A DNA stretch of 64,000 nt from Planococcus sp. MB-3u-03 (lineage in GTDB: Bacteria > Bacillota > Bacilli > Bacillales_A > Planococcaceae). The notes below the pieces were generated by a model that was given only the letters and a program-made list of their open reading frames with translations, had not been told where the DNA came from and searched no databases. The translations under genes and the position numbers were made by a program. The first letter of the stretch is position 1. Each line of letters opens with the position of its first letter. The stretch covers positions 96,001-160,000 of the forward strand of contig NZ_CP025135.1 in NCBI RefSeq assembly GCF_002833405.1, written 5' to 3'. Below, piece by piece: positions 10,810-55,303 of this stretch.

Positions 10810-10837
10810 GAATTTACCAATTATCAAAACGTTGACG

Positions 10838-11063
10838 GGAAGAAGTAAGGAGAGCATGCTCCAAAGAGAGGGTCATCACCGGCTGTAAGTGACCTGTGCC
10901 GCTGCGCTCCTGAAATGCCTCCCCGAGTGCTGAGTTGAATCAAGTAGACCAGACGTTTGCCTGCGTTAAAGGCTTCGAGAGAAAAGGACATGTCCTTTTA
11001 ATCAGAGTGGAACCGCGCGGGAAAGCGTCTCTGTCAAGCAATTGACAGGGGCGCTTTTTATAT
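10838..11063 (+). promoter_or_regulatory. T-box leader, cysteine specific (cysE-cysS)
   Basis: A tRNA-sensing leader. The antiterminator T-box core AGAGTGGAACCGCG lies at about 11004-11017. It is followed by a terminator hairpin with arms AAGCGTCTCTGTCA and TGACAGGGGCGCTT and a T-run ending near 11060. The specifier is TGC (Cys) at 10928-10930, placed just before TGAGTTGAAT. The same sequence context precedes the second T-box specifier in this window. Uncharged tRNA-Cys should stabilise the antiterminator and switch on cysE and cysS, the family behaviour. Confidence 0.93.
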
Positions 11064-18087: not shown

Positions 18088-18102
18088 GGCGAAGTTGTGA
18101 AA
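18068..18102 (+). repeat. Perfect 14-bp inverted repeat around the rplJ -10 box
   Basis: The arms are TTTCACAACTTCGC (18068-18081) and GCGAAGTTGTGAAA (18089-18102), with spacer TATACTG. The spacer holds the whole -10 hexamer. There is no T-run, so it does not look like an ordinary terminator for rplA. As DNA it could be an operator; in read-through RNA it would be a long hairpin. Confidence 0.9.
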
Positions 18103-18240
18103 TAACCATTTGTACCGCAGACAGCAGGGGCGGCTTGCCGCTTAATGAATCCCTGCCGAGGACATGATGAATTCAGATTCCATCTTAATTGATGCTGATT
18201 TTATGCCTCTGTGTCTGCACTGGACCAGAGGCTTTTCTTA
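18103..18240 (+). promoter_or_regulatory. L10 leader with attenuator
   Basis: The segment ACAGCAGGGGCGGC...CTTAATGAATCCCTGCCGAGG fits the known L10(L12)4-binding leader of Firmicutes. A terminator-like hairpin follows at 18205-18232 (GCCTCTG/CAGAGGC) with TTTT after it. In B. subtilis, free L10-L12 complex favours termination at this spot. Confidence 0.8.
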
Positions 18241-18282
18241 TGGACGGACGGTATGAATGACAAATCTATAGGAGGTGCCCAC

Positions 18283-53969: not shown

Positions 53970-54680
<711 letters not shown>

Positions 54681-54985
54681 GTCCCGGCGCCGGGCGCAGC
54701 TAGTTGCCTCCATGTGGCTTTAAGGAGCACCGGAGATATGAATTTTCGAGAGCTGCAAAAGCAAATAAGGCTTGATTATATGAAACCGGTGAGGCTCGTT
54801 GCTCCGTGCAATTCCGCACCGGAGGTAGTATAATGGGTTTCGTGGAAGCATCTGTGTAACGGGTTTGGAACTCATCCAAGGCAGTCCGGGCAGTCGAGGA
54901 TACGTGGGTCAGACTGGCTCAACCGGAACCCCCGAACTCCGCTGTCATAAGTGGGGAGAGGAACCCGGAGAAGGTCTTTCAAATG
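54681..54985 (+). other. Structured, GC-rich intergenic region between adk and infA (map absent)
   Basis: This gene-poor stretch lies where map is expected in relatives; no aminopeptidase reading frame is present in any frame. It holds a 9-mer GCACCGGAG twice (54727 and 54816), CCGGTG (54786) that can pair with either copy, a hairpin GTGC-AATTCC-GCAC extended by CTCC/GGAG (54802-54824), and a CAGTC/GACTG stem (54891-54916). Two small frames with ribosome binding sites, 54738-54833 (31 codons) and 54833-54859 (8 codons), overlap as TAATG. I recognise no known RNA family. Confidence 0.55.
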
Positions 54986-55039
54986 TCACTCATGAATTCC
55001 TGGTGAATGGATAAGAATTATTCAATCAGCAAATACTGT

Positions 55040-55067
55040 TTGAAGATGAGTACCTGATTTGTATACA
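55040..55067 (+). promoter_or_regulatory. Possible promoter of infA
   Basis: TTGAAG and TATACA are separated by 16 bases, ending 17 bases before the infA start. It would let infA and the alpha operon be expressed apart from secY-adk. Confidence 0.5.
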
Positions 55068-55084
55068 GAAGGGAGACTGGGTCG

Positions 55085-55303
55085 ATGGCGAAAGACGATG
55101 TAATTGAAATCGAGGGAACAGTCATTGAGACTTTGCCCAACGCGATGTTTAAAGTGGAGCTTGAAAATGGCCATACGATTCTTGCGCACGTATCAGGCAA
55201 GATTCGCATGCATTTCATCCGCATTCTGCCAGGAGATAAAGTAACAGTAGAACTTTCTCCTTACGATTTAACACGCGGTCGCATCACATACCGTTTTAAA
55301 TAA
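55085..55303 (+). CDS. infA: Translation initiation factor IF-1
   Basis: IF-1 binds the 30S A site during initiation. The 72-residue OB-fold protein starts [20 protein letters not shown] and contains [21 protein letters not shown] purine-rich GGGAGACTGG lies upstream of the ATG. It opens the alpha operon part. Confidence 0.96.

Follow-up and report, generated by a model that had tools for sequence, protein, structure and literature searches.

A decayed map gene between adk and infA in the Planococcaceae, apparently under constraint and possibly serving as a noncoding control element

A bacterial gene that is lost in place leaves a unitary pseudogene, and such remnants are normally erased quickly. 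In mammals, Xist derives from Lnx3, a protein gene that turned noncoding, and pieces of the dead gene persist in a noncoding role. Conserved noncoding stretches before translation genes are also known, namely the ribosomal protein leader RNAs (e.g. the L10 leader). The gap between adk and infA in the family Caryophanaceae (NCBI naming), or Planococcaceae, resembles each of these in part. It occupies the adk-infA place of map (mapA; type I methionine aminopeptidase of the spc-alpha operon, TIGR00500) and can be aligned to the EELQKHIVPG, YNGFRGSICV..ELIQGIP and EAKPDERLSNISHAIQTYVE motifs of its product, but it carries stops, frameshifts and large deletions and is unable to make the enzyme. Like other unitary pseudogenes of bacteria it is a gene lost in place; unlike them, it persists as a gap of 294-458 nt in 175/175 loci and is apparently constrained letter by letter. 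Compared with Xist and Lnx3, this relic is bacterial, sits at an operon junction and probably acts in cis, and its noncoding role is putative. Compared with the ribosomal protein leaders, it has no Rfam match, derives from coding sequence and holds one covarying helix. A full-text search of the part of the literature that is under open licence found no report of a map relic or an exapted map, and a search of PMC11109978 for infA, adk and four genus or family names gave nothing.

The window, i.e. the whole stretch of 64,000 nucleotides that was analyzed, belongs to a Planococcus genome. Its features around the gap are as follows.

54027..54680, + strand: adk, an open frame (it opens at 53973; we chose the start at 54027)
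54681..55084, + strand: adk-infA gap of 404 nt, the map (mapA) relic plus the infA leader
54727..54735, + strand: copy 1 of the 9-mer GCACCGGAG, for which no conserved pairing was found
54816..54824, + strand: copy 2 of the same 9-mer, including the 3' arm of hairpin P3
55069..55075, + strand: infA ribosome binding site AAGGGAG, read from the sequence
55085..55303, + strand: infA, an ORF of 72 aa

We read the open frames after infA as rpmJ-rpsM-rpsK-rpoA-rplQ. The AAGGGAG site was retained in most relics printed and altered in g4 and in part of g8 and g14 (g numbers denote genera and L numbers loci). A sequence-only reading of this DNA had proposed that a GC-rich, structured and possibly switching RNA replaces map here. 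It was right that map is missing, as the open-frame list of the window holds no map-sized ORF in the 404 nt between the end of adk (54680) and the start of infA (55085). The words on which it built were also recovered by sequence search, with GCACCGGAG at 54727 and 54816, CCGGTG at 54786 and CTCCGTGC at 54802. The richness in GC proved only mild (54.1% in the segment that it singled out and 50.2% in the whole gap vs 48.0% in adk), and the repeated 9-mer is within chance, since 110 of 1000 dinucleotide shuffles also have one. Several other Bacilli have a KOW gene behind map, and 54681-55084 lacks this gene too; the genome has only two KOW matches, both elsewhere, which we read as rplX and nusG from position alone.

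It is near certain that the gap is a decayed map gene and not an unknown RNA that replaced map, and a unitary pseudogene of map (mapA) in the spc-alpha ribosomal operon is its best explanation. Searched with a covariance model of the best-conserved core (R1, 93 positions), 398 genomes of the class yielded 63 with a match, comprising 37 in the family (among them the own genome, at 54.5 bits and E 1.4e-9) and 26 outside it (Bacilli). For 20 of these 26 outgroup genomes the adk-infA locus was retrieved, and in every one an intact map lies between the two genes, with a frame of 246-248 open codons that reads as Map; a KOW-like frame, judged by eye, comes after map in at least 11 of the 20. Because intact map sits at the very outgroup loci matched by R1, the conserved "RNA motifs" are old Map codons. 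Moreover, searches with the intact Map proteins (tblastn, best of 20) found 124 of the 134 unique relics at E<1e-3, while one shuffled Map gave E 0.02 and the own second Map E 0.015 as controls. The ten misses were all relics of g4 (3), g8 (2) and g12 (2), two of g10 and one of g1; those of g4 are tied to the map relic by an R1 match and those of g12 by 87-96% DNA identity to the window over the matched blocks. Another possibility in the sequence-only reading, the remnant of an element that had displaced map, was correct in that the gap is a remnant; homology and the outgroup loci make it one of map itself. The pieces of Map that can be placed in the window are these.

54748..54766, + strand: block A, former EELQK codons of Map, one base short in our reading
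54802..54993, + strand: stretch aligned to outgroup Map residues 39-136, numbered from the first Met of the L233 frame (tblastn E 4.1e-8), with a stop and deletions
54829..54863, + strand: block B, former YNGFRGSICV codons of Map
54974..54993, + strand: block C, former RLSNISH codons of Map, core of R1

The full former motif of block A in other genera is EELQKHIVPG. Its HIVPG codons, kept in those genera, have diverged in the window copy; the stretch reads ELQKHIVPG in L098 and L056, and ELQKQIMPD in L079. The own genome has another type I methionine aminopeptidase gene at contig position 1009507, which could explain why the loss of map was tolerated.

The relic is spread through the family. 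A DNA search of 150 genomes (own included) matched 81, namely 46 in the genus, 34 elsewhere in the family and only one outside, the last weakly (E 0.006). Conservation in relatives, which the sequence-only reading had named as a check, was clear: each of the 45 further genus members searched gave a near full-length match to the gap (base 1-5 to 404), and the 34 family genomes gave partial ones. On one other contig the relic is identical to that of the window at 100% (after rounding). A pattern scan of genomes returned 72 records, one labelled Bacillus sp. FJAT-22090; the others carry genus names that we take to belong to the Planococcaceae/Caryophanaceae. In addition, 80 adk-infA gaps, mostly of other genera, were fetched by place. 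Both flanking genes were present in 175 of 182 loci, and none of these 175 has a gap long enough to hold map (about 744 nt). The 175 loci cover all 19 genera into which the family is divided and include genomes counted twice (two records each); 136 of the gaps are unique, and the survey for an intact map covers these 175 loci of the family. infA was detected in 149 of 151 family genomes searched. Loss of the reading frame and of large parts of the gene would date from before the Caryophanaceae (Planococcaceae) spread, or from an early stage of that spread. The remnant of a group II intron or other mobile element was dropped as a candidate, given one place in 175 loci and no second genome copy; neither the gap nor its core has a second match above chance in the own genome (best E 0.195 and 2.6, respectively). 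In g12 (Indiicoccus), the relics L087 (same genome as L154) and L088 have lost block C and retained block B together with the infA-proximal block.

Considering that the gene is broken, two simple accounts of its conservation had to be weighed, continued coding and neutral decay. Reading phases and stops are scattered across genera, and the middle and C-terminal parts of Map, which hold the metal ligands, are absent from the four relics printed as alignments. Identity at codon positions 1/2/3 was 0.84/0.90/0.86 in block A (LQKHIVPG; 104 relics, 18 genera), 0.87/0.84/0.86 in block B (122 relics, 17 genera) and 0.74/0.81/0.76 in block C (68 relics, 13 genera); the blocks were chosen for being conserved, which biases the level of identity and leaves its evenness over codon positions unbiased. 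The same codons in intact maps, which come from many families and are also more distant than the relics, gave 0.71/0.91/0.40 (n 17), 0.94/0.89/0.54 (n 20) and 0.89/0.91/0.46 (n 20). No coding-like drop at third positions appeared in any of seven clade sets, the largest spread being 0.83/0.76/0.83 in g6 with g9. It is true that L079 (g11, Paenisporosarcina) keeps an open frame from block A on, throughout the part of the relic that aligns, and that 13 of 41 Planococcus relics have blocks B and C in one phase with no intervening stop, so that a shortened protein might still be encoded in some genera (g11, part of g1). We nevertheless rejected this reading on the codon positions and regard it as extremely improbable: the signal is absent precisely in g1 (0.864/0.862/0.873) and g11 (0.962/0.968/0.969), length differences between relics are not multiples of three, and the four printed alignments lack much of Map.

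The other account has map lost on several recent occasions, the relics being alike only from earlier conservation of the protein. The conserved blocks do coincide with conserved Map motifs, and the neighboring genes are conserved too. Against this, third positions reach 0.86 in blocks A and B, far above those of the intact maps; all 175 gaps are too short for map; and the four printed relics share the loss of the middle and the C-terminal part. We also found that relic mean identity exceeded that of the 4-fold sites of adk plus infA, our single neutral yardstick, in 13/13 bins (all pairs, 134 relics). In the three easily aligned bins (105, 101 and 70 pairs, non-independent) the values were 0.950 vs 0.826, 0.961 vs 0.874 and 0.978 vs 0.924, so that between close pairs the relic changes at roughly one third of the synonymous (4-fold) rate. 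Between genera the means were 0.619 and 0.503, a comparison in which alignment inflates the relic figure. Conservation in the relic comes in blocks separated by variable stretches. As the sole explanation neutral decay is thus largely refuted, and we hold it to be very improbable. That the relic is noncoding and constrained appears well supported by these comparisons, and we are rather confident of the joint statement that a map relic is present and that its remaining letters are under constraint.

What the constraint serves can be proposed with less assurance. An action of the map relic in cis on infA is plausible. The boldest reading, which comes close to being probable and is put forward tentatively, is that map died in the family ancestor inside an essential operon and became a noncoding control element that selection has held since, with two of its codons as the -10 box of infA-rpoA, a new RNA hairpin, and Xist as a parallel. 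Our best guess at the function, judged from sequence and held with considerable doubt, is that the relic was retained because it supplies the infA operon with its promoter and leader. The features concerned are the following.

54775..54834, + strand: hairpin P3, with a covarying stem 54786-54791/54817-54822 and an outer stem 54775-54781/54828-54834, the latter from folding a single sequence
54806..54811, + strand: candidate -35 GTGCAA, 3/6 of consensus, former Asp/Gly-Ala-Ile codons
54829..54834, + strand: candidate -10 TATAAT, former Tyr-Asn codons of GYNGFRGS

The relic would be kept as the carrier of signals for the downstream infA-rpmJ-rpsM-rpsK-rpoA-rplQ operon. The former Tyr-Asn codons (TAT AAT) would act as the -10 box together with a TG in the -35 place at spacer 17, and transcription would start near 54841 and give an infA leader of about 244 nt. 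For a candidate sigma-A promoter, this spacer falls within the expected 16-18 nt. TATAAT is perfect in 108 of 124 relics and altered in g7, g10 and g18; TG (-35 places 2-3) stands at a spacer of exactly 17 in 94 of the 124 and is absent from all relics of g2, g7, g10, g13 and g18. As a genus mean, TG reaches 0.66 at spacer 17, and no other spacer between 8 and 33 exceeds 0.22. Of the 20 intact maps of other families (L231-L250), 14 have TATAAT and 16 have TG. Since the same letters occur in living map, they were retained and not gained, and ancestral letters were kept at 0.94 in TATAAT, 0.73 in TG, 0.44 in the spacer and 0.82 in the 21 letters downstream; TATAAT is only slightly better preserved than this downstream block. 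A promoter scan did not list the site at 54806-54834, because its -35 is weak, and a promoter leaves blocks A and C unexplained. The putative leader, from the proposed start to infA, has little excess folding (mean z -0.69). For B. subtilis, the infA-rplQ unit is described with its start upstream of infA (PMC4495994), which would make a promoter in this place unremarkable; the novelty of the putative promoter is its seat in a dead gene.

The hairpin is the one element of RNA structure that we found, and P3 is well supported in Planococcus. It was spotted by eye before the scans. A helix-level scan of every position against 60 tree-based null alignments gave P3 a score of 2.70 in Planococcus vs a null maximum of 2.25, beyond 60/60 nulls; the scanned window (gap 106-110 with 138-142, i.e. 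54786-54790 with 54818-54822) was 98% canonical, with double changes at 5/5 pairs. With the arms aligned separately, P3 was the best of 980 windows, with double changes at 5/6 pairs. In three other clades the scan found nothing beyond the nulls (best E 0.05). The P3 segment, placed only roughly for g3 and g8, had a mean folding z of -2.50 over 44 relics of 18 genera, was negative in 43 of them and folded at p 0.05 or less in 29, vs an average of +0.45 for the segments of intact map at the same place (five of 20, recovered by pattern). This difference suggests that the hairpin probably arose after map died. In mRNA that reads through from adk, P3 would be present and could shield untranslated sequence from nucleases or Rho, or else indicate a site of processing.

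The structural part of the sequence-only reading fared unevenly under the same data. Of its two partners for CCGGTG, copy 2 (CACCGG, 54817-54822) covaries with it in the genus and copy 1 is unsupported: copy 1 retains AGGAGCACCGGAGATA in 33 of 41 Planococcus relics while CCGGTG changes. The mutually exclusive helices of a switching RNA were accordingly rejected, as copy 1 does not follow these changes and only one alternative covaries. Its further helices, CAGTC/GACTG and CTCC/GGAG, do not appear among the 14 helices that the scan listed for the genus, where the first alone reached significance. The segment that it had called structured has a z of -1.23 in the window sequence, and 11 of 100 shuffles fold as well. 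Covariation, which it had proposed to look for, was found as one helix beyond the nulls in Planococcus, while single covarying pairs under a tree-based null gave none significant. An Rfam search, likewise proposed, gave nothing at gathering score in the gap and two chance-level matches (E 0.93 and 8) at E up to 10. We had ourselves drawn long helices for a large pseudoknotted RNA, namely GGGUUUCG/CGAAACC, GGAUUGU/ACAAUCC, CUUUCGAACAU/AUGUUGAAGG and CUGUGUA..CUCAUC/GAUGAG..UAUACAG. They were dropped and are not claimed, because none was prominent in the helix scan and most of their letters are old Map codons.

Two further functions compete with a promoter seated in the relic. The relic may be a structured leader RNA that regulates infA in cis (e.g. 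via a ribosomal protein or IF1), has no internal promoter and is transcribed only from upstream. P3 covaries and lies upstream of the putative start, so that it would be RNA only in a longer transcript, and whole relics, one per genus, have negative z in 16/16 genera (-0.1 to -4.3, mean -2.16). On the other hand, only one helix is significant and the gap has no match to an Rfam leader. A complementarity of 54852-54876 with 55045-55068 (CTGTGTA and CTCATC with GATGAG and TATACAG) ends beside the infA ribosome binding site. By eye it is found in several genera, which would suit such a leader; it is lost in others and not among the helices listed by the scan. We consider this account unlikely on balance, though with a substantial chance of being right. 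A small RNA acting in trans is improbable. The strongly conserved blocks and the perfect -10 box of most relics would fit it, but no terminator-like site was found in 54600-55150, the relic runs directly into the infA ribosome binding site, and, as noted above, gap and core have no second match above chance in the genome.

A bacterial pseudogene kept letter by letter in every genus examined allows the conversion of coding DNA to a noncoding element to be put to the test. There is a warning in it as well: a gap in a ribosomal operon that looks like a strongly conserved "orphan RNA" can turn out to be a dead gene. Should the promoter reading hold, it places the transcription start of infA and rpoA in the Planococcus family and raises the question of whether the same promoter already works inside the living map of other Bacilli; the TATAAT of the intact maps may mean that an internal promoter was already there. 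Elsewhere in the window, Rfam identifies a T-box leader at 10823-11035 (RF00230, 105.6 bits) and a ribosomal protein L10 leader at 18097-18247 (RF00557, 66.5 bits).
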